Both the position numbers and the translations under genes were made by a program. Below the pieces are notes generated by a model that was not told the origin of the DNA, did not search any database, and saw only the letters and a program-made list of their open reading frames with translations. A DNA stretch of 64,000 nt. It comes from a virus. The stretch covers positions 38,348-102,347 of IMG/VR virus record IMGVR_UViG_3300032304_000826; one strand, written 5' to 3'. Of the stretch, positions 7,279-40,400 are shown piece by piece; position 1 is the first letter of the stretch; the number at the start of each line of letters is the position of its first letter.

Positions 7279-7746
7279 TTATATTCCTAACCACCATGAG
7301 ATTGCAGCACTGCCTGCACTTGAAGATCCAGCAGGACCGGTTGGTCCAATTAATCCTTGTGGGCCTGTTGGGCCTACTGATCCAGTAGGACCTGTAGATC
7401 CTTGTGGAGCTGCGCCGGTTTCAACCCAGTATCCATCATAATAAATAAAAATACTGCCTGTATTTGGATCAAACCAAGAATCACCAGCCACTGCATTAGC
7501 AGGTGGCGTTCCGGTTGTTGTTGTCCAACGACCTAAAGATCCAGTTGGTCCAGTAGATCCTGTTGGTCCAGTAGGACCTGTTGCACCAGTATTACCCGTT
7601 AAACCTGTGGGACCAGTTGGACCCGTTGGTCCAACTACAGGTGTACGAATTACGTTCCAAGTAACACCATCCCACTTCCAAGTAGTATTACCAGAAGTAA
7701 ATTCTTGATTGAGTGTAGGTGAATTAGGAAAATCAATAGCTGGCAT
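7279..7746 (-). CDS. Short collagen-like tail fibre protein, copy 1
   Basis: The 155 aa protein has an N-terminal segment [16 protein letters not shown] with WKWDGVTW, shared with the partial gene at 1-346. A GPTG collagen-like stretch follows, then a globular insert with [17 protein letters not shown] and YYDGYWVE, a second collagen stretch, and an end rich in Ser, Ala and Trp. The insert also occurs in the long collagen protein at 11327-13180 ([23 protein letters not shown]). It is likely a trimeric fibre. Its start overlaps the stop of the Gly-rich gene by 1 base. Confidence 0.82.
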
Positions 7747-8609
7747 TAGATTGGGTACCTAATAATCACGATACCAGAGCCGCCCCTACCTCCATCAGAT
7801 AAACCGGATGTACTTCCGCTTCCGCCACCTCCACCGCCAAGACCATTTGTGCCATTGCCACCAGCACCGTTGTTACCGCCAGCTCCGCCCCCACCACTAC
7901 CCCCTGATGATGCAGTTCCACCTGAACGGTTAGCGCCCCCACCGCCACCAGCATAAAAAGTACCAAATACAGAAAGCCCTGCGCCTCCAGAACCAGCGTT
8001 TCCCTCACTAGGAACATATCCTCCAGCAGCTCCTGCGCCACCGCCACCAGCCATACTGCAACAACCTCCAAAGGAACCTCCACCATTATTTCCTTGACCT
8101 GCAACACCTGTTCGTACTGATTGATAAGATGGGTGACCTACCCCACCTCCAGAACCTCCATTTGATGCTGGAGCAGAACCATTACCACCACTTACCTGTT
8201 GTTCTCCAGCACCATAACCTCCACCGAAGGATGTTAAACCAAATGCTGTGCTGTCTCCGCCTTGGGTAGGCATTGAAGAGCCACTTGAACCGTTTCCATA
8301 ATTTCCAACAACAATTGAGTAGTTAGTAATTGATACATTTAAGCTTCCAGTAAGCAGACCTCCCGCACCTCCGCCACCGCCTTGGTACCCACCACCACCG
8401 CCCCCACCACCAGCAACAATTAAGTATTCAACTGGTCCTGATTGATCTGGGGTAAAAGTAGATGTGCCCACAGCAGTAAAAGTATGTATGCGGTAACCAC
8501 CTGCGATTGTAACTGTTCCACCAGTAGAGCCAGTGCCTATACGACCAGTTTGAGTTTTTCGTTTTCCTTGGCTGCCGTAGCTTCCCCGAACAGAGCTAAC
8601 AAAAGGCAT
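7746..8609 (-). CDS. Glycine-rich tail tip/adhesin protein, copy 1
   Basis: The 287 aa protein starts [12 protein letters not shown] and contains [12 protein letters not shown] and [11 protein letters not shown] long Gly-rich section follows and it ends [10 protein letters not shown]. It is a clear paralogue of 2373-3314. A Cys pair ([10 protein letters not shown]) sits inside the Gly-rich part and is absent from the other copy. Gly-rich domains of this type are known as receptor-binding or fibre-tip modules; that role is inferred here. Confidence 0.82.
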
Positions 8610-8613
8610 TTAA

Positions 8614-10692
8614 TTACCCCCAGTTTAAGTTAGCGGAGCCTAGTACGGTCCATGCGCTAGAAATACGAACTAGTGTAAATGTGAATACATCAATACGTCC
8701 AGCAACACTTGTTGGGGTTGGGGCCGCTGCCGCAGTCCATTTAATAGTTTGAGATGTTCCCGCAATAGTTAATGCGCTTGGAATATAGCCAGTTGCACCT
8801 TGGGTAACAAAAACGTTAATGGTCATAATCTTATTGTTATCAGTAGGCACGTTTGTAAGAGCCACTGTAAAGTTTGCAGAAGGTGCGCTAGCAATCCAGT
8901 AGATGTTACCTGTAGACCAATCGCAAGCTGCTGAGTTAGAAGTAATAGTTGTTGCTACTAATGCTTCACGCATTTCTTGAATGTCAACTGTTCCGCTTAG
9001 TGATACTAAACCCGATGCGGTTAGTCCACCAACCTGTAGATCCGCATAAGCAGCCCCAGCTTCCGCAAAGTTTACAGTTGTAGTTGGTTTAGTTGTAGCG
9101 TCCTTAAAGATTTTAAATACGCCATCAGAAGCGTCACGAACTGCACCGCCGTAGTATCTACGGGCAGCTACCGAGCTACTGCCTGACGCAGCAGCTGAAG
9201 ATACGTTTGCATTGGTTTTAGCATATGTAAATGTTGTTGAGGTAGGCACTGCAATAATTGAGTAGGTACCGTTAAATGTAGCATCTACGCCAGTTATAAC
9301 AGCCACATCTCCTGCACGATAGTTATGGCCAGCAGAGGTAGTAAGAGTTGCCACATTTGAAGTTAACGCTTTGTTAGTAATTGTGCTAACTAGCGCTGCA
9401 ATTGTACTTGCGTACTCAACTACTAAGCCTTCGTCAACAGCATCTGCTTGATTGCTTATACCAGAGAAGATCATAGGCGCAACAACTGCTAGGTTATCCG
9501 TAGTAGTAGCTCCTCCACCAAATGTGAGGTTACCAACGATAGACATATTACCTTCTACGTTGACGCTGCCTTGAATACCAACACCACCGACTACTGTTAA
9601 AGCACCTGTTGTAGATGAGGTAGATGGGGTATCAATTTCAATGTGTACGTTTACATCTGGGGTAATTGACATTTGCTCATTGTCAGAAGCTAAGCCTCCA
9701 GCAGCAAAAATAAGCTTGTTCTCACTACCTTTGTCACCAGTAGCAAATACAAGGTTACCCTTACCAGTAGTTCCTACAGGAGCTTCTAGGAAAATGTAGC
9801 CGTCGTTTGCGCCAGTAATTGTAAACTCGGGGTCGTTAAAGTTAGAGGATGTAATACCCATGTCAATGTAGCCAGCAAAGTCTGTACCATTATTTGCATA
9901 AGCAATGTAATCAGTAGATGAGTTTGTACCATTTCCTGAGTTTCTAAATGCAATTTGTGCAAAGTCATCATCTGCATCAATAGCATATACAGCAGCTGCG
10001 TTGGTATATCCAGGAATAGTGGTTATTGTTCCTACAGTTGCTTGTGAAGCAATATTTCCTGCAGTCTTATCAAAAGTAAAGGTATTTAAAGTAGGCGTAG
10101 CGGTAATTTCATATGTGCCATCAAACGCAGCGTCTGCTGGGCTAAGGGCAATAGTTACGAACTGAAACGGGGCAAATCCGTGTGCGGTAGATGTAGTAAT
10201 AGTCGCTACGTTAGAGGTCAAAGATTTTGTTTGAGCAGTCTTAGTAACAGTACCTAAAGTTTCAGCATCTGTACGTGCTCCAGGACCTACGTATAGCTCT
10301 CCCGCAGTTGAGCCAACATCAAGGTCTCCGGTTACTCCAAGAGTTCCAAAAGAGTTAGACCAAGAGGCAGCAGTTCCGTCTGTCTTTAGAAACTTACCGG
10401 CGTTGCCTGTTTGTGTTGGGACTTGGCTTACAGTTGCAAACTGAAATGCAGAGCCAGTTGTCTGTAAGAATTGACCGTTTGTTCCTGCTGTAGGATCTGT
10501 GTACCCATCAATCATCTTAGACCAGTAGGCTGTATCTGTTGGGGCGTTGCCCGCGGTAGCGCCAGTGTTGATATAGGCGTAAAGGTTATTAGTGTACTTA
10601 ACTACATCGTTAAGCTGGTATGTAGTGGCACCGCTATAGGTTCCCTTATAGGTAAAGCGAAGCTTACCTAAGTTAAAAATCTGAGCAGCCAT
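8614..10692 (-). CDS. Large tail fibre protein, copy 1
   Basis: The 692 aa protein starts MAAQIFNLGKLRFTYKGTY with one copy of the 50-aa repeat. It then has the beta module (AHGFAPFQFVTIALSP, later GHNYRAGDVAVITGVD), the shared block NLVFATGDKG to GALTVVGGVGI, and the C-terminal domain VTQGATGYIPS to VLGSANLNWG. It is homologous to 3325-6222 over the centre and C-terminus and is shorter because five N-terminal repeats are missing. It is likely a second fibre in the same appendage system or a receptor variant. Confidence 0.85.
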   Translation of the reverse strand: MAAQIFNLGKLRFTYKGTYSGATTYQLNDVVKYTNNLYAYINTGATAGNAPTDTAYWSKMIDGYTDPTAGTNGQFLQTTGSAFQFATVSQVPTQTGNAGKFLKTDGTAASWSNSFGTLGVTGDLDVGSTAGELYVGPGARTDAETLGTVTKTAQTKSLTSNVATITTSTAHGFAPFQFVTIALSPADAAFDGTYEITATPTLNTFTFDKTAGNIASQATVGTITTIPGYTNAAAVYAIDADDDFAQIAFRNSGNGTNSSTDYIAYANNGTDFAGYIDMGITSSNFNDPEFTITGANDGYIFLEAPVGTTGKGNLVFATGDKGSENKLIFAAGGLASDNEQMSITPDVNVHIEIDTPSTSSTTGALTVVGGVGIQGSVNVEGNMSIVGNLTFGGGATTTDNLAVVAPMIFSGISNQADAVDEGLVVEYASTIAALVSTITNKALTSNVATLTTSAGHNYRAGDVAVITGVDATFNGTYSIIAVPTSTTFTYAKTNANVSSAAASGSSSVAARRYYGGAVRDASDGVFKIFKDATTKPTTTVNFAEAGAAYADLQVGGLTASGLVSLSGTVDIQEMREALVATTITSNSAACDWSTGNIYWIASAPSANFTVALTNVPTDNNKIMTINVFVTQGATGYIPSALTIAGTSQTIKWTAAAAPTPTSVAGRIDVFTFTLVRISSAWTVLGSANLNWG

Positions 10693-10965
10693 CTACTCAA
10701 CCTCCATAATAAGTTGGTCTGTGTTTGTAGTATCCCATGAAAAGTACAGTTCGTAAGGGGTTAGCGCAGTCGTATAATAAGTGTCCTCAAACCGTGCATA
10801 TACTGTCCCGTCATCATTTACCTGTGGAACTACAATTTTAGCTGAAGTATCGCCCCACAAGTACTCTTCTACAGTCAACGTATCCGTTTTTGGATCATAT
10901 TTAAAACCATAGAAATTCTGCTTTGATTTTGTAGAACTACCTGATAAGGATAAGAAACCGGCCAT
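10693..10965 (-). CDS. Small fibre-region protein, 90 aa
   Basis: The protein starts MAGFLSLSGSSTKSKQNFYG and ends in TNTDQLIMEVE. It is beta-rich with no transmembrane segment. It lies immediately upstream (in transcription) of fibre copy 1, as 6222-6500 lies upstream of fibre copy 2, and both end in a similar hydrophobic-acidic tail. It is possibly a fibre base or chaperone protein (inference). Confidence 0.68.
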   Translation of the reverse strand: MAGFLSLSGSSTKSKQNFYGFKYDPKTDTLTVEEYLWGDTSAKIVVPQVNDDGTVYARFEDTYYTTALTPYELYFSWDTTNTDQLIMEVE

Positions 10966-11297
10966 TAGGCTGTGATCTCCGTTCCAAATACGCTTACGCT
11001 GAGGTTGTTATTTGCCCCATTGAGCGTTATTACATCCGCAGCATCCATAGTTATGCCAAAAGAAAGAACAGTGCTGTCATTTCTAGAGATCGGTACGTCA
11101 TAAGCAACATAGTGCTTGCTTTCTACTGTAGCCCCATTAGGACGAACAGATAATCTGAAAGTGGTGCCGTCTGTACCCCTATTAACTACCACAATGCTGC
11201 TAATAATAGCTGTGGTACTTGGGGGTACAGTGTAGACGTTAGTATCAACGCCAGCCGTGGATACGACTTGCCCTAATACTTTATATGTTGTTGGCAC
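10965..11297 (-). CDS. Small virion-type beta protein, 110 aa
   Basis: The protein starts MPTTYKVLGQVVSTAG and continues NVYTVPPSTTAIISSIVVVN and SFGITMDAADVITLNGANN. It resembles 6949-7278 and 6500-6940 in strand order, so this family has three members in the window. A 1-base overlap with the next gene indicates coupled translation. It is likely a minor tail protein. Confidence 0.68.
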   Translation of the reverse strand: MPTTYKVLGQVVSTAGVDTNVYTVPPSTTAIISSIVVVNRGTDGTTFRLSVRPNGATVESKHYVAYDVPISRNDSTVLSFGITMDAADVITLNGANNNLSVSVFGTEITA

Positions 11298-11326
11298 TGT
11301 GTTCCTTCCTAAACTTGATTATTTTA

Positions 11327-13180
11327 CTAAATTGTTCCGAATAAAAATGGGTGTAGCGTATCTATAGCTGGACCAGTAGGCCCAGTTACACCTGCAGGCC
11401 CTGTAGGGCCTGTTGTTCCCGCAGATCCAGTTGGTCCTGTTGGACCAGTAACTGAGGGGCCAGTTGGGCCGGTAGGTCCCGCAACTGTAGAAGCAGCTCC
11501 AGTAGGGCCTGCCTCACCTGCAGGTCCTGTTGATCCTCTAGCGCCAGTAGGTCCCGTTGGACCAGCTACTGTGCTAGCCGCACCAGTTGGTCCTGTAGGA
11601 CCTTCTGATCCTGCTGGACCTGTAGGGCCAGCTACGGTTGATGCTGCACCTGTTGCGCCTTGTGGTCCTGTGGGTCCTGTTGGACCGATATCAGAGTTAG
11701 CCCACTCAACCCAATATGAATCGTAGTAAACATAGTTTCGTGCATTGTTAGAGTTAAACCAAACATCTCCTGGATTTGGAGTAGAGGGTGCAGTTGCTCC
11801 CACATAAAAAATTCCTTGAGGACCAGTAGAGCCTGTAGGTCCTGTTGCTCCAACACTTCCAGTTGGTCCTGTTACACCTTGTGAACCAGTAGGACCCTGA
11901 ATATTTCCAACATTTGTCCAACTAGAAGTTGTTACTGACCAAACATAAAGTTCGCCATTTATTAAGTAACCTTGTCCTACAGAACCTGTTGGCTGAGCAG
12001 CTTGTAGTGCAGCCAGAGATGCGTAAGAACCAAGAATTGTAATTCCTGTTCCTTGTGGGCCAGTCGCACCAGTTGGACCAGTAACACCTTGAGGACCAGT
12101 AGGTCCAAGTAATCCTTGCGGACCAGTAGGTCCAGCCACTGTGCTTGCAGCACCTGTCGCACCGGTAGCACCAGTTGGTCCCGTAGCACCAACTGCACCG
12201 GTAGGGCCAGTTACATTAGATGCAGCGCCAGTTGGTCCGGTAGGTCCTGTTGCTCCAATTGGGCCAGTAGGTCCAGTTACTGTAGACGCAGCACCAGTGG
12301 CGCCCGTAGCTCCAGTGGCACCTGTTGGTCCAATTAATCCTGTAGATCCGGTGGGACCAGTTGATCCAGTAGGGCCCACATTTCCCTGAGCTCCAGTAGG
12401 TCCAGTTGAACCCGTTGGTCCCACGCTTCCTGTATTACCTGTAGGTCCAGTCGCTCCACTTAATCCTGTGCTTCCTGTAGGTCCTGTAGATCCGGTTGGA
12501 CCTTGGACTTGACCTACGTTATCCCAAGTAGCGCCTTCCCAAACATATAGTTGGCCGCCAATTAAATATGCATCACCTTTAACAGGATTTACTATTGCGC
12601 TTAACGCACCTACGTTAGCGAGTGTTCCCTGGATCTCTAGACCAGTTCCCATAGGGCCTGTAGGGCCTGTAGGACCCGCAACAGTCGATGCGGCTCCTGT
12701 AGGACCAGTTGCACCTGTAGGGCCTGTAAAACCCTGAATACCTTGATTACCTTGTGGGCCCGTAGGTCCAGCAACACCGGTAATACCTTGTGCACCTGTG
12801 GCACCAGTTGGTCCAAGAGGACCGGTATCTCCACGAGAACCTGTAGGGCCAGTAGATCCTATAGGGCCGGTAGCACCAGTAGGGCCAGGAACTGTAGAAG
12901 CTGCGCCAGTTGATCCAGTTGGGCCAGTAGCACCGGTTGCGCCTACTGCTCCGCCAGCTCCAGTTGGCCCAGTTGGGCCACGTACTGTAGATGCGGCTCC
13001 CGTAGGTCCGGTAGCTCCCGTAGGTCCGGTAGCACCATTTGTACCTGCAGCACCAGTAGGGCCGGTAGGTCCTGTTGCTCCTGGAGCTCCAGCTGGGCCG
13101 GATCCGCCAGTATTTTCTCCAATGATTACAACAGTTGTGTCATCTGGAGTGATTTCAATAATTTCAATTGGATCAGACAC
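11327..13180 (-). CDS. Long collagen-like fibre protein with three globular inserts
   Basis: The 617 aa protein is built mostly of Gly-X-Y triplets (GPTG and GATG types, with [11 protein letters not shown] cassettes). Three non-collagen inserts interrupt it: [40 protein letters not shown], and [20 protein letters not shown]. The N-terminus ([20 protein letters not shown]) is acidic and beta-like and would attach to the virion. The last residues ([10 protein letters not shown]) are hydrophobic. It is a trimeric fibre, by analogy with other phage collagen-like proteins. Its start overlaps the neck-type gene upstream by 8 bp. Confidence 0.85.
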
Positions 13181-34161: not shown

Positions 34162-34710
34162 ATGACTACTCAGTCATTGTTCGACCAGTCCGTAGTGGCT
34201 GCTGCTAATGTCCGTGGTGCTCGTGGCGAGGAGCGTGAAATTGAGCGCCTTGCCAATGAGGCCATAGCCAATGGGTGGGGTGCGCCTATCCCTGCCAGTA
34301 TCTACAGCGACCTTGCTGTAGTTGCCAAGAAGGATGGGACAGAAGTGGTGGAAGTATCACCACTTCAGTTTGCCCACGCCTTCTACTTGGTTCGTACCTA
34401 CGGGTACAAGCCTCGTGATGCCCGCCGTATCGCCAAGCGATTCGGTATGGAGTTGGATGGTGTGTATACATCCGACACAGCACAGGTGGTTCGTGCCATC
34501 ACCACTATGGAAGAGCAATTCGTTGACGATAAGGAATCAGTCCTTATCCCAACCAGCATTGCTGCCATCAAGTCCCGTGTCGCTACGCTTAAGAAGCGTA
34601 TGAAAGACGGGGCTGTATCAGATGCCGACCTTCAACAGTTGGCATCTATAAGCGAAGAGATCCGTGATCTCTCCGTTGCCACCACCCCATCACTGGTGGT
34701 AAGCGCGTAA
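34162..34710 (+). CDS. Hypothetical early protein, 182 aa
   Basis: The ATG at 34162 has AAAGGA at the proper distance, so the longer upstream start is rejected. The N-terminal region is helical (NVRGARGEEREIERLANEAI). A central segment has FAHAFYLVRTYGYKPRDARR and a VTS/DTAQ loop. The C-terminal half is a predicted coiled coil (AAIKSRVATLKKRMKDGAVS). It is the first gene of the rightward block. No family is recognised. Confidence 0.68.
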   Translation: MTTQSLFDQSVVAAANVRGARGEEREIERLANEAIANGWGAPIPASIYSDLAVVAKKDGTEVVEVSPLQFAHAFYLVRTYGYKPRDARRIAKRFGMELDGVYTSDTAQVVRAITTMEEQFVDDKESVLIPTSIAAIKSRVATLKKRMKDGAVSDADLQQLASISEEIRDLSVATTPSLVVSA

Positions 34711-35083
34711 TACTCTCTCGGCTACTGCCTTCCTAGCCGCATAGCCTGTGTCAGTCCGACCAGGTTATCGGCTAGGGGGTAGTGCTGTTATCAGGGTATT
34801 AGGGGAAGTCAAGGGCTAAGCCAATAGTCCTTGGCCTCTCAACTCTACACGGTGCTACCTTCCCCGTACCGTGTAGGGCTGAGGGGTTCATACCCCTTAC
34901 ATCAGAAGATACGGCGATACCTGTGGGAATCAGGAGACTGTTAGGCAATCCCGAAGTACACCCTAACCGCTAATGGCACGAAGATAACTACTCTGTTCTG
35001 CCTTCCACAATGGGGGGTGGGTATGCCTATGTGTACCAACACAAACCGTATGCCTGCCCCCCATTTCTCCACCCAGTTAGTCT
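34711..35083 (+). ncRNA. Long structured non-coding leader
   Basis: No convincing coding frame is present in about 370 bases. Several stems are visible: CGGCTA / TAGCCG (34719-34739), whose 3' arm CTAGCCG can instead pair with CGGCTAG at 34769; CTACACGGT / ACCGTGTAG around 34845-34877; a GGGG / CCCC hairpin near 34884; and the long hairpin at 35010-35064. The density of stems suggests a structured RNA that precedes the next element and gene. Confidence 0.55.
35010..35064 (+). ncRNA. 17-bp hairpin with a CAACACAAAC motif in the loop
   Basis: The 5' arm ATGGGGGGTGGGTATGC pairs with GTATGCCTGCCCCCCAT over all 17 positions (four of them G-U). The 21-nt loop contains the conserved 10-mer CAACACAAAC (35037-35046). 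An inner GTGT / ACAC pairing is also possible. The wobble pairs only make sense in RNA on the plus strand. Confidence 0.7.
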
Positions 35084-35175
35084 GTGAAAGGCGCATCTGT
35101 TCATCTGTAGGGAGGGTCCTTATAGATCATTGAGTGCTATCAAGCAGGTGCGCCTCTCACTCTCTACCTGAGAGT
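35084..35175 (+). promoter_or_regulatory. Structured leader element, copy A
   Basis: The closing stem pairs GTGAAAGGCGCATCTG (35084-35099) with CAGGTGCGCCTCTCAC (35145-35160): 14 Watson-Crick pairs, one wobble and one A-C mismatch. A 6-bp hairpin ACTCTC-TACCT-GAGAGT (35159-35175) follows, then AGGAGG and the ATG at 35194. The same layout with compensatory changes occurs at 35599-35795. It is probably a translation or processing control element. Confidence 0.72.
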
Positions 35176-35193
35176 ATGAACTAGGAGGTTGCT

Positions 35194-35382
35194 ATGTCCC
35201 ACATAGTTTCAGACGATACAACAGCCCGCCTTATTCCGGGCACAATCGGTACGAAGACAGTCACCATTCCTACCGAAACTTTCTACGAGGTAGTCAATGC
35301 TCTCCGCGATGGTTGCGGATGTGCTAAGTGCTTGGACAATGCCAACACTCTCCTTGTCCACGGGTATACACCTAGGAGGTAA
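35194..35382 (+). CDS. Small Cys-containing early protein, 62 aa
   Basis: The start is set by CTAGGAGG. The sequence has TARLIPGTIGTKTVTIPTET and then EVVNALRDGCGCAKCLDNAN, a C-x-C-x2-C cluster. It has no membrane segment and no recognised family. It is the first gene behind structured leader A. Confidence 0.6.
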   Translation: MSHIVSDDTTARLIPGTIGTKTVTIPTETFYEVVNALRDGCGCAKCLDNANTLLVHGYTPRR

Positions 35383-35384
35383 CT

Positions 35385-35591
35385 ATGGACTGTACCGTCT
35401 GTGGTAACCCCGTCCTACCTGGCAGATGGGATGCTGGTTATCACTATTGCTTTGATCCAAACTGTGCCCACGAATTGCGTGAGCGACAGAAGAAATACGC
35501 CCTGATTCTTATGCCCAAGCAGGGCTTTACCTATGTAGAGGTTGATAGTCCTCACCTGTTAGATGGCAAGTCATCAGGTAGGTCATCTTAG
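35385..35591 (+). CDS. Small zinc-finger-like protein, 68 aa
   Basis: MDCTVCGNPVLPGRWDAGYH followed by YCFDPNCAHELR gives a C-x2-C ... C-x4-C zinc site. The rest is short and basic to neutral. AGGAGG precedes the ATG by a few bases, within the preceding stop region. The likely role is nucleic-acid or protein binding; unknown. Confidence 0.6.
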   Translation: MDCTVCGNPVLPGRWDAGYHYCFDPNCAHELRERQKKYALILMPKQGFTYVEVDSPHLLDGKSSGRSS

Positions 35592-35598
35592 ATAGATA

Positions 35599-35795
35599 GT
35601 GGAAGGCACATCAAGCACGGACACCATCCAGTTGGTAAGTATTGTTAGAGGCATTTGATGTGGTCTCGTCTAACTTCCGCTTGGCGCAGTTATGTATGTA
35701 ATATTCACATCTGCATACATTGATTTACTCGTCCCCCTGAAAACGGCCGTATAAAGTCCCTCGCTTGGTGTGCCTCTCACCCTCTATCTGAGGGT
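35599..35795 (+). promoter_or_regulatory. Structured leader element, copy B
   Basis: GTGGAAGGCACATCAAGC (35599-35616) pairs with GCTTGGTGTGCCTCTCAC (35763-35780) and encloses 146 nt. The hairpin ACCCTC-TATCT-GAGGGT follows at 35779-35795, then CTAGGAGG and the ATG at 35815. Relative to copy A there are four double, pair-preserving changes. The 5' arm (CACATCAA, 35607-35614) can also pair with TTGATGTG at 35655-35662, so two exclusive folds exist. An inverted repeat ATGTATG / CATACAT (35692-35720) lies inside. Confidence 0.75.
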
Positions 35796-35814
35796 AATAA
35801 CTAGGAGGAAGAAG

Positions 35815-35976
35815 ATGGAAAAAGAATGTGCAGTAATCCATTGCACCAATACCAATCTCGTCTATAGCGGTACTGATGCATTCCAGTTAGGCGGTATCCC
35901 CACCGAAATGTATTGCCGTCCTTGTGCGATCGCTTACTATGTGATCAGCGAAACAATGAAGGCCATCAATGCCTGA
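35815..35976 (+). CDS. Small Cys-rich early protein, 53 aa
   Basis: The ATG at 35815 follows CTAGGAGGAAGAAG. The sequence MEKECAVIHCTNTNLVYSGT, with YCRPCAIAYYVIS later, gives C-x4-C ... C-x2-C, likely one zinc site. Its stop overlaps the start of the BldD-like gene, so the two are co-translated. Confidence 0.6.
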   Translation: MEKECAVIHCTNTNLVYSGTDAFQLGGIPTEMYCRPCAIAYYVISETMKAINA

Positions 35977-36274
35977 GCGTGCCAACACAAACACGCCCAC
36001 CTACGCCAACATCTGCGCTAGGTTGCGCTATGTACGCCAACTCAAGGGCTGGACGCTTGATGAGGCCGCACAAAAGTCTAATGGCAAGCACAAAGCCAAT
36101 GTAATCGGTTCCTATGAACGCGGACAGCGGTCAATCTCAGTCAAGAAACTCATTGAGCTGGCCCGCCTGTATGACGTACCTGTTACCGATTTCTTTGGCA
36201 TCCCCGATCAAAATGAAAAGTCACAGGCACTCATTGACCTGTTGATTGACCGCCTACACGCACAGAAGGGATAA
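35969..36274 (+). CDS. BldD-like helix-turn-helix regulator
   Basis: The 101 aa protein has an XRE-type HTH (RLRYVRQLKGWTLDEAAQKS) followed by NVIGSYERGQRSISVKKLIE and LARLYDVPVTDFFGIP. The GSYERG...V-K-L-ELA-Y-VPV run is characteristic of the N-terminal DNA-binding domain of actinobacterial BldD. It lacks the c-di-GMP-binding C-terminal domain. It probably controls phage or host promoters. A CAACACAAAC copy lies in its first codons. Confidence 0.85.
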   Translation: MPERANTNTPTYANICARLRYVRQLKGWTLDEAAQKSNGKHKANVIGSYERGQRSISVKKLIELARLYDVPVTDFFGIPDQNEKSQALIDLLIDRLHAQKG

Positions 36275-36276
36275 CA

Positions 36277-36525
36277 ATGGACAGACCAATACCGATTGGC
36301 AAAGATCAAGTCAATCATTACTACATCTCCACCGTATTTCTAGGTGAGGACTACAAGCCCCGCGCATACGAGACCATGGTCTTTGAGAATGACGAGGCTA
36401 TCTACGAAGCCCGCTATGAACTTGAATGGGAAGCAAAGATTGGACACATGCACGCTATACATCTAGCGCGTAATGACAAGTTCCTTCCCCGCGAGTCTGC
36501 GCCTCCAACAGCGCAACAACTTTAA
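36277..36525 (+). CDS. Hypothetical early protein, 82 aa
   Basis: The protein starts MDRPIPIGKDQVNHYYISTV. It is acidic, with YEARYELEWEAKIGHMHAIH and a Pro-rich end (LPRESAPPTAQQL). It begins 3 bp after the BldD-like gene, so it lies in the same operon. No family is recognised. Confidence 0.6.
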   Translation: MDRPIPIGKDQVNHYYISTVFLGEDYKPRAYETMVFENDEAIYEARYELEWEAKIGHMHAIHLARNDKFLPRESAPPTAQQL

Positions 36526-36534
36526 ATGGATGGA

Positions 36535-36773
36535 GGAAGGCAGAGATAGGGTCTGAGCATCTCTACCTGATTCTGCAAGCTGCGCTTCAGGTTCTCCGCC
36601 ACGTATGTATCAAATGGAGAGTGAGCCCCGTGGGCAAATGTTAGAGAGAATGTGCCTACTTGTGCGTGTGACTCCATGAGAAGATTTCTGCAGTGCATTG
36701 CAGCACGCTTCTTTGGTACGTGAAACTGATTCGTTACAGCCTATCTCTGTCTTCCCCTGCCCATTTGGACAGG
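36535..36773 (+). promoter_or_regulatory. Structured leader element, copy C (related layout)
   Basis: GGAAGGCAGAGATAGG (36535-36550) pairs with CCTATCTCTGTCTTCC (36740-36755) over 16 bp (one G-U) and encloses 189 nt of non-coding sequence. A small hairpin CCTG ... CAGG (36756-36773) follows, then AGGGAGG and the ATG at 36792. The 5' arm AGAGAT can also pair locally with ATCTCT (36559-36564). The layout equals copies A and B, but the sequence is more distant. Confidence 0.62.
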
Positions 36774-36791
36774 ACAACAAGGGAGGATAAA

Positions 36792-37019
36792 ATGAAAACA
36801 GAAACCTTAACGATTACCATCGCTAAGACTGTTCTCTATAAGCATGAGGATACTCATGTAAAGACAGACGGCAAGTACAGTTGGATCCGCTTCAACAATA
36901 CATCTAGTTGCCCGTTCTGTATCGCAAAGGCAATCCCAATGATTGAGGATAAGCAAGACACCCTCTCATTGGCCCACTACATCAGTGCTAATGCAAAAGC
37001 ATTAGTCGCTGCTAACTAA
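36792..37019 (+). CDS. Hypothetical early protein, 75 aa
   Basis: The start at 36792 has AGGGAGGATAAA in front. It encodes MKTETLTITIAKTVLYKHED, then NTSSCPFCIAKAIPMI with a C-x2-C motif, and an Ala-rich helix at the end. The C-P-F-C motif recalls thioredoxin-like or zinc sites but the context is too short to assign. Confidence 0.6.
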   Translation: MKTETLTITIAKTVLYKHEDTHVKTDGKYSWIRFNNTSSCPFCIAKAIPMIEDKQDTLSLAHYISANAKALVAAN

Positions 37020-38234: not shown

Positions 38235-38732
38235 ATGGGAGCAAAAACAAACTCTCTCAAAATCAGGCGACTTGACCTCCTTGAAGCACTTGAGGAACGC
38301 TATGCCGCGTTGACAAAACAAAAAGATGAGTATGAAAAGTTAGACAAAGAGTATAACCTCGCATCTACTAAATACGACAAAGATGTGAAAGCATACGAAA
38401 AGCGAATGGATGACTTCTTACGTGGCTGCACAGTTGGCGGAGAAGTTCATTGGTCTTCAAGCAGTCGTAGATGGGGTAGTGACGAACAGTATTACAGAGT
38501 AGTTTCTGAGGTGCATGTTCCCCACAAAGCTGTGGTTAAAGCTATTGGACCTGAACCTGAACGTCCAACAAGCACACCTACTCCTTACTTTCTACGATCA
38601 CGCATGGGTAGAGGCTATGCAGTAGAGCCTTCAGTCTATGAGTCTGTTTACCAAGCAATCCAGTTGCTACATATGTCAGATGATGAGACCGTCTCAGCAT
38701 CTATGTATCAATTAGCATTGGAAGTATTGTAA
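38235..38732 (+). CDS. Coiled-coil early protein, 165 aa
   Basis: The N-terminal half is a coiled coil (LLEALEERYAALTKQKDEYE, KLDKEYNLASTKYDKDVKAY). The C-terminal half is beta-rich with GCTVGGEVHWSSSSRRWGSD and RSRMGRGYAVEPSVYESVYQ. It overlaps the next gene by 1 base. No family is recognised; a scaffold or DNA/protein-binding role is possible. Confidence 0.62.
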   Translation: MGAKTNSLKIRRLDLLEALEERYAALTKQKDEYEKLDKEYNLASTKYDKDVKAYEKRMDDFLRGCTVGGEVHWSSSSRRWGSDEQYYRVVSEVHVPHKAVVKAIGPEPERPTSTPTPYFLRSRMGRGYAVEPSVYESVYQAIQLLHMSDDETVSASMYQLALEVL

Positions 38733-39505: not shown

Positions 39506-39704
39506 CGTTGGGGCAGAGACATAATGATTGGCCAATGTGCGTGGGTATCCTATGTGGACACTATTCCCACTCAGTAACTAATCAAAACACATGAGACTAA
39601 ATGCAATTAAAGCGACACCTCGGGGCAACCCACGTGCGTGCAGGATACCGTTAAACGTGGTATCTCTGTCCCAACACAAACATTCACACAACATAGGAGG
39701 TTAT

Positions 39705-39998: not shown

Positions 39999-40400
39999 TA
40001 AACACGGGAGTGGGAGTTACTAGGTAACGAAAAGTCCCCTCGTTTGCTTGAGGCACGGCAGAATGCAGTAGGTTTATTATTTGACCTCTATATTGCTGTA
40101 ACTTAATAGAAAAAGTACTATCACTGTGCGTTATGTGATCTTCTTGTTCAGAGTTATATAAGTGAAACGAAAGTGCACGCTAGCGTAAGCCAAAAAACGT
40201 TTTAAGTATATATACACCTGTCCGAAGATGGACGACAATACCATATTGGAAATTTTGAGGGTCCTAGATGTATATCGATGTGCATCGACGCGTATATGTT
40301 CTATTCAATAAATAACTGTGTTCTGTTCTCAAACCCTCAGGCCATAGCATGTCAGACTAACGGTGCTATGGCTTGAGGGCTCATAACTATAGGAGGAACA
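39999..40400 (+). promoter_or_regulatory. AT-rich regulatory region with dyads and a 16-bp hairpin
   Basis: The gene-free 400 bases are AT-rich in the middle. TCGATG / CATCGA (40275-40288) is an operator-like dyad. CCCTCAGGCCATAGCA (40334-40349) pairs with TGCTATGGCTTGAGGG (40364-40379) over 16 bp with one G-U, immediately before AGGAGG and the ATG at 40401. No T-run follows, so it is a leader hairpin rather than a terminator. A promoter is likely here, but no hexamer pair is convincing. Confidence 0.6.

Follow-up and report, generated by a model that had tools for sequence, protein, structure and literature searches.

An intergenic long-range stem in an uncultivated virus and its place in a family of stem elements of related viruses

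Location and structure of element C

Record IMGVR_UViG_3300032304_000826 is an uncultivated virus of bacteria with 102,347 bp, and a stretch of 64,000 nucleotides of it (positions 38,348 to 102,347), referred to below as the window, was analyzed. The genes of the window include a WhiB-like gene and an ATPase gene, and the named-phage matches of the latter include Gordonia and Brevibacterium phages. Long GGNCC-rich repeats, collagen-like in look, occupy window positions 7300-13000 and give rise to many spurious inverted repeats.

The element considered here, designated C, is intergenic (36523-36797, + strand) and is flanked by a gene of 82 aa on its 5' side and a gene of 75 aa on its 3' side. 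Its features are given below in window positions, with the outer helix (P0) placed in the register of the family model.

36523-36529, + strand: 5' strand of P0 (TAAATGG), overlapping the TAA stop of the upstream gene (36523-36525) and pairing with 36761-36767
36533-36550, + strand: 5' arm of the inner helix, P1 (GAGGAAGGCAGAGATAGG), pairing with 36740-36757 except for A.C at 36534/36756
36551-36739, + strand: insert of 189 nt, noncoding and predicted to fold
36740-36757, + strand: 3' arm of P1 (CCTATCTCTGTCTTCCCC)
36756-36773, + strand: local hairpin CCTGCCC-ATTT-GGACAGG, sharing its first 2 nt with the end of P1 and covering the 3' strand of P0
36761-36767, + strand: 3' strand of P0 (CCATTTG)
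36780-36786, + strand: Shine-Dalgarno (SD) sequence AGGGAGG
36792-37019, + strand: downstream gene, 75 aa

The core stem is formed by 36535-36550 (GGAAGGCAGAGATAGG) and 36740-36755 (CCTATCTCTGTCTTCC). It had been described in the first-pass annotation as a perfect long-range stem of 16 bp; all 16 positions pair, but 15 of the pairs are Watson-Crick and one (36540-36750) is G-U. The short hairpin and AGGGAGG that the same annotation placed after the stem are both present, with the ATG following at 36792. Because the hairpin covers the 3' strand of P0, these two structures cannot coexist. In a repeat search the stem was found to reach outward, to arms of 27 nt (36524-36550 and 36740-36766) that are 81% complementary. 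Within 30-42 kb of the window, C and another element, B, form the two best stems on the + strand (scores 54 and 53), while 60 dinucleotide shuffles of the same region gave a maximum of 50 and a mean of 35.5. In the complete 102,347-bp record, GGAAGGCA has two + strand occurrences, one in the 5' arm of B and one in that of C. Folding of the entire C region gave an unremarkable stability (z -1.31; 20 of 200 shuffles equally stable).

Both flanking genes and C itself are retained in two close contigs, L003 and L004, with 88-91% identity over 268 nt; the search with the downstream gene and the search with the exact arm pattern each returned these two contigs only. Loss of the stem in relatives that keep the flanking genes, which the first-pass annotation had suggested looking for, was thus seen in neither of the two. 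The claim that the enclosed 189 nt hold no gene also stood: four single-base indel columns were found when the window was compared with L003 and L004, and none of the + strand reading frames stays long in all three, so that a coding insert was rejected. Compared with L003 and L004, the arms of C differ at 1-2 of 63 positions and the insert at 18-26 of about 186, i.e., the arms vary 4 to 7 times less. The 5' strand of P0 is identical in both contigs; between P0 and P1, two pairs show a one-sided change with pairing retained, and a hairpin of the insert (ACCTGA/TCAGGT in the window, ACCTAG/CTGGGT in L004) contains two double-compensatory pairs. The 16-bp core stem is invariant across the only three copies of C found, and hence C itself provides no two-sided covariation in P1.

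No significant match of the 75-aa downstream gene was found in Pfam or PHROG. The single promoter-like match in C lies over the start codon and scores below the shuffle mean; a + strand scan of 34690-36820 for terminator-like sites was negative. One segment of the insert (36578-36607) resembles positions 1501-1531 of L002, at another place in the genome and on the other strand (30 nt, 87%, E 6e-4); the target lies in apparent coding sequence, and the match is probably due to chance.

A family of stems with a competing hairpin

Two further elements upstream of C, copies A and B, provided the reference for the family.

35074-35188, + strand: copy A (P0, P1, insert, P1, hairpin, SD)
35589-35808, + strand: copy B

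Related loci were collected by a search with the ATPase gene (25 loci) and by a hairpin-pattern search (21 stretches); among ten new stretches from the latter that were inspected, two looked like chance matches and one was unclear. In total 31 A/B-type candidates from 29 loci were obtained, and 30 rows (28 distinct) were left after removal of L016, which has no P0 and a poor hairpin. Candidates were selected for at least 14 of the 16 P1 pairs, with neither P0 nor the hairpin as a criterion, although the pattern through which eight of the 29 loci were retrieved fixed the 5' side of the hairpin and part of P0.

All main parts follow a common register: an outer 7-bp helix (P0), a 3x3 internal loop, the inner helix (P1) and the local hairpin. 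Analysis of the arms revealed that: (i) 95.8% of the cells of P0 and P1 are paired as against 28-57% in slid controls, the pairing of P1 being partly due to the selection; (ii) two-sided changes are present at 13 of 22 pairs, and none of 500 shuffles reached any of the covariation measures; (iii) in P0, which was not used in row collection, 88.3% of the cells are paired and four of seven pairs show two-sided changes. The local hairpin was found in all 30 elements, starting 2 or 3 nt inside the end of P1, and its sequences vary on both sides (ACTCTC/GAGAGT, ACCCTC/GAGGGT, ACTATC/GATAGT, ATTGGT/ACCAAT). P0 and the hairpin share the same bases and are therefore mutually exclusive. An SD sequence and a start codon lie directly 3' in 27 of the 30 elements. 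An unpaired position 5 of P1, mostly A.C, is constant in nearly all of them, a strand-specific G-U/A.C pattern is kept, and the helix length is near 27 bp in several classes of elements.

The A/B-type arm pattern matched 10 viral stretches and none of the bacterial and archaeal genomes searched. Rfam gave one tRNA only for the window, no match up to E 5 for 34690-36800, and tRNAs only for nine relative loci. No such stem family appears in the available text of the full-text literature covered (PMC3203893, PMC12699233, PMC9378689, PMC5371410, PMC2936110, PMC3014915, PMC7302621), a scope that mostly excludes subscription papers. The family is apparently widespread in related viruses and undescribed.

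For assignment of C, a pair model was built from 21 A/B-type rows, with the window phage, L003 and L004 left out and the second L050 row dropped, and was run over the whole 102-kb genome with insert lengths of 15-300 nt. On the + strand B (63.3 bits), A (62.8) and C (35.2) ranked first, followed by a site with 7.7 bits, and the maximum in 12 locally shuffled genomes was 10.1. A chance origin of the C stem was rejected on the basis of this genome-wide ranking together with the shuffle maxima. The orthologues of C scored 33.9 (L003) and 31.0 (L004). When single loci were left out, 16 of 20 relative loci were matched at a score of at least 14, with near relatives of the omitted locus staying in the training set. 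For the cultured relatives Cantare and Hanem, a 24.8-kb stretch of each was scanned; stems are present, with model scores not exceeding 1.9. The opposite strand gave 38.0, 30.9 and 23.9 bits for B, A and C, respectively, and these lower values favor an element acting as RNA.

In the register of the model C has P0 (TAAATGG/CCATTTG), the 3x3 loop, P1 and a hairpin starting from the last 2 nt of P1; relative to the end of P1 (36757) and to P0, this hairpin is placed as in the A/B-type elements. The unpaired position 5 is absent from C, which has A-U there and its A.C at position 2, and for this reason C was filed as a divergent member of a wider family and not as a typical A/B copy. Of the two readings offered by the first-pass annotation, a third member of the RNA family of A and B or an independent element of the same operon type, the former is thus supported, and the plan that it considered equal in all three copies is shared with respect to the P0/3x3/P1/hairpin register, whereas the enclosed RNA is common to neither A nor B. 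A further correction concerns position, C being located between genes and not at the head of an operon.

The elements are repeated along the operon. Counting a weak candidate, D, five of the seven + strand gene gaps longer than 90 nt within 34.1-47.6 kb hold an element.

39507-39675, + strand: looser relative E (GTTGGGGCAGAGAC.. / ..CTCTGTCCCAAC), upstream of the whiB-like gene
40057-40327, + strand: weak candidate D, resembling the class with an insert of ~230 nt and followed by a hairpin (40334-40379) and AGGAGG-ATG

The best stem of E has similar, compensating arms in the window, L003, L004, L007, L011 and L025, and exceeds its 60 shuffles in the window and L007 only; no E-like arms were found in six other loci matching the whiB-like gene. 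In a narrow search with the model of the ~230-nt RNA, D scored 5.7 bits (E 0.021 for 751 bases), and the orthologous places in L003 and L004 scored 9.8 and 10.6 bits.

This ~230-nt RNA, conserved and structured, forms inserts of 223-237 nt inside long arms in 16 loci.

First eight loci: L008 4540, L009 4223, L012 3990, L014 1090, L015 2910, L017 5061, L018 3717, L019 5182
Other eight loci: L022 3719, L024 3085, L026 3322, L029 3475, L034 2976, L045 (minus), L050 (minus), L051 (minus)

Rfam gave no match to it in the loci scanned. Its model, R1, found six matches among 19 records, all from its own training set (128-236 bits), and none at E 1 in the genome of the window phage. The insert of C matches neither the HMM nor the covariance model (1.2 bits for the latter, local piece only) and shares with this RNA only a short CCCxGUGGG..UGUUA resemblance, so that its identity with the ~230-nt RNA was rejected. 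In the A/B pair model the long-insert arms of L034 (48.3) and L018 (15.6) stand above most others, which score below 14; part of this class thus shares the A/B frame clearly and part only loosely.

Comparison between loci revealed two kinds of exchange. P1 and insert of copy B (35600-35779) are 87% identical to positions 3114-3290 of L026, a distant phage, while the surrounding P0 and hairpin are unrelated; P1 plus insert can thus move as a unit. In distant L007 a homologue of the 86-aa gene (44% over 48 aa) sits after a gene resembling the 75-aa one, and no element lies directly upstream of this pair, which resembles the two genes downstream of C. The elements are thus not bound to particular genes. 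In L035, an A/B-type element lies upstream of an ORF that looks like a counterpart of the 86-aa gene. L007 and L035 together indicate that the elements are exchanged among genes.

Possible roles of the element

The C stem probably marks a site where a shared mRNA is cut or controlled. Our preferred reading, to which we give a little under even confidence, is that C serves as intercistronic RNA punctuation, with a stem cut in the manner of RNase III and a 3' part that refolds into a 5' hairpin. If the region is transcribed as a single unit, the arms of C would pair in the polycistronic transcript into an interrupted helix of ~27 bp (P0, 3x3 loop, P1) and thereby enclose, between the two genes, a noncoding RNA of 189 nt. 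This helix would be cut by an RNase specific for double strands, most likely RNase III of the host, and the enclosed RNA would be freed. The leftover 3' arm could then form the local hairpin just 5' of the SD sequence, and this hairpin may provide a structured, protected 5' end for the next mRNA. According to the available part of PMC2936110, mRNA is cut by Streptomyces RNase III.

Processing by a double-strand-specific RNase would account for the irregular helix of ~27 bp, for the free length of the insert and for the hairpin that replaces the helix. Also counting for this reading are the family assignment of C, the covariation of the A/B-type arms, the constant placement of the hairpin, the smaller variability of the C arms than of the insert, the presence of elements in most large gaps, and the exchange of P1 plus insert as a block. 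The conservation of sequence in the A/B-type P1 arms, which RNase III does not require, counts against it, as do the unremarkable fold of the whole region, the invariant core stem of C and its lack of the unpaired position 5.

A translational switch, in which the long stem leaves the SD free (ON) and occupation of the 5' arm makes the CU-rich 3' arm pair with the SD around the hairpin (OFF), seems unlikely. The mutual exclusion of P0 and hairpin would suit such a switch; the predicted accessibility of the SD of C decreases from 0.89 to 0.07 when the 5' arm is blocked, and in 45 of the 51 elements given it falls by more than 0.2 in 24 and rises in two. However, composition-shuffled 3' arms hide the SD as well or better (mean 0.35 for real and 0.29 for shuffled arms, with the real value lower in 11 of 39; 0.08 versus 0.07 for C itself), and a conserved anti-SD or selected SD sequestration was accordingly rejected, the effect in C being no better than with shuffled arms. 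Moreover, six of 51 elements, three of them long-insert (3 of the 8 long-insert elements, arms present), lack an SD with a start codon within reach, an observation more in line with processing than with control of translation.

A different possibility is related to the head of the operon.

34715-35060, + strand: operon-leader RNA, conserved and noncoding

This region is 96-97% identical in L003 and L004, its fold is much more stable than those of shuffled sequences (z -6.4; reached by 0 of 100), and Rfam gave no match. At the same place the relatives hold other multi-hairpin regions. Within it, stretches complementary to 5' arms lie at 34996-35006 (TTCTGCCTTCC, for C) and at 34999-35008 (TGCCTTCCAC, for B). 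It could be hypothesized, as the boldest of the leads, that this RNA captures several downstream 5' arms, flipping or protecting them, so that the 3' arms refold to hairpins, with the leader stretch and the arms coevolving in each lineage; we regard this as distinctly unlikely. An upstream complement of 10-17 nt to the 5' arm tested (of C or of a long-insert element) exists in 10 of 11 genomes, the exception being L034, and two lineages use different sequences. In eight genomes helices of 12-17 bp with G-U pairs were reached by 0 of 60 shuffles, but arms are near-identical in most of these genomes, so that few independent events are represented. For the window and L025 the 10 Watson-Crick pairs were reached by 0 of 60 shuffles each, whereas with G-U pairs counted the helix length was reached by 2 of 60 and 14 of 60, respectively. 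In the window, the duplex of lowest energy is located elsewhere, and with its energy attained by 10 of 60 shuffles the energy test lacks significance. Complements of the A/B-type 5' arm were found as motif matches in only a few of the upstream regions listed; a positive test was obtained solely for the arms of C and of the long-insert elements. Each 5' arm has a complement in its own 3' arm, so that the upstream match may have arisen as a copied 3' arm. If such a circuit does exist, a single phage RNA would control numerous small genes at the level of processing or translation.

That C is a DNA-level inverted repeat, i.e., a recombination boundary or a mobile cassette in which the RNA fold is incidental, is improbable. 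The P1 and insert shared by B and L026 within unrelated flanks would agree with a cassette, but the arms are not mirror images, the G-U/A.C pattern of the A/B type is strand-specific, the pair model scores the coding strand higher for B, A and C, and an SD with a start follows the stem in 35 of 65 cases on the scored + strand versus 9 of 58. An antiterminator acting in the nascent RNA on RNA polymerase, like put of HK022, is hardly credible: an irregular stem with a second hairpin at once after it in a long operon recalls put RNAs as they are presented in the available part of PMC9378689, but those are ~70 nt long and lie downstream of early promoters, whereas in the present family inserts of up to about 250 nt occur, outer helix and second hairpin are competing structures, the elements recur at many gaps and the + strand around A, B and C (34690-36820) holds no terminator-like site.

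The preferred reading, punctuation between cistrons, can be approached experimentally. The family offers covariation-supported RNAs with two exclusive folds, natural swaps of inserts and, in some members, the ~230-nt RNA, which makes the punctuation of long phage operons directly testable by reporters and 5'-end mapping.

Comparison with known systems

The early mRNA of phage T7 is a polycistronic RNA with RNase III processing stems, and stems of this kind often contain an internal loop. The elements described here resemble them in their long intercistronic double strand, in their repetition along the operon and in the RNA enclosed by the arms. They differ in the strict P0/3x3/P1 register, in the conserved arm sequence of many members and in the overlapping alternative hairpin; in our family, cleavage is presumed. 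The stems flanking bacterial rRNA are a further parallel, and E. coli RNase III sites in them are listed in the part of PMC5371410 available.

Repeated inverted repeats located just 5' of start codons in actinophages are also a feature of the SAS/ESAS elements of cluster K mycobacteriophages (available text of PMC3203893), with analogues in the Microbacterium phages EF and EG (PMC7302621, likewise in part). The role of such repeats, SAS/ESAS and others, has been open since 2011. As given in the same part of PMC3203893, ESAS have 17-bp arms of shared sequence with spacers mostly of 4-13 bp and accompany a 13-bp SAS. In contrast, our family has covarying arms, inserts of 26-250 nt and no SAS; C in particular has AAGGGAGGATAAA before the start and a spacer of 189 nt.

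Like put of HK022, an RNA of ~70 nt that consists of two stem-loops and follows an early promoter (PMC9378689, text available in part), the family consists of phage RNAs of two adjacent stems. Unlike put, it has a variable insert and two competing structures, and it differs in size and position, C being about 250 nt long and intergenic. In the descriptions available to us, the P0/3x3/P1 register is seen in none of these systems, namely SAS/ESAS, the Microbacterium repeats, RNase III stems and put.
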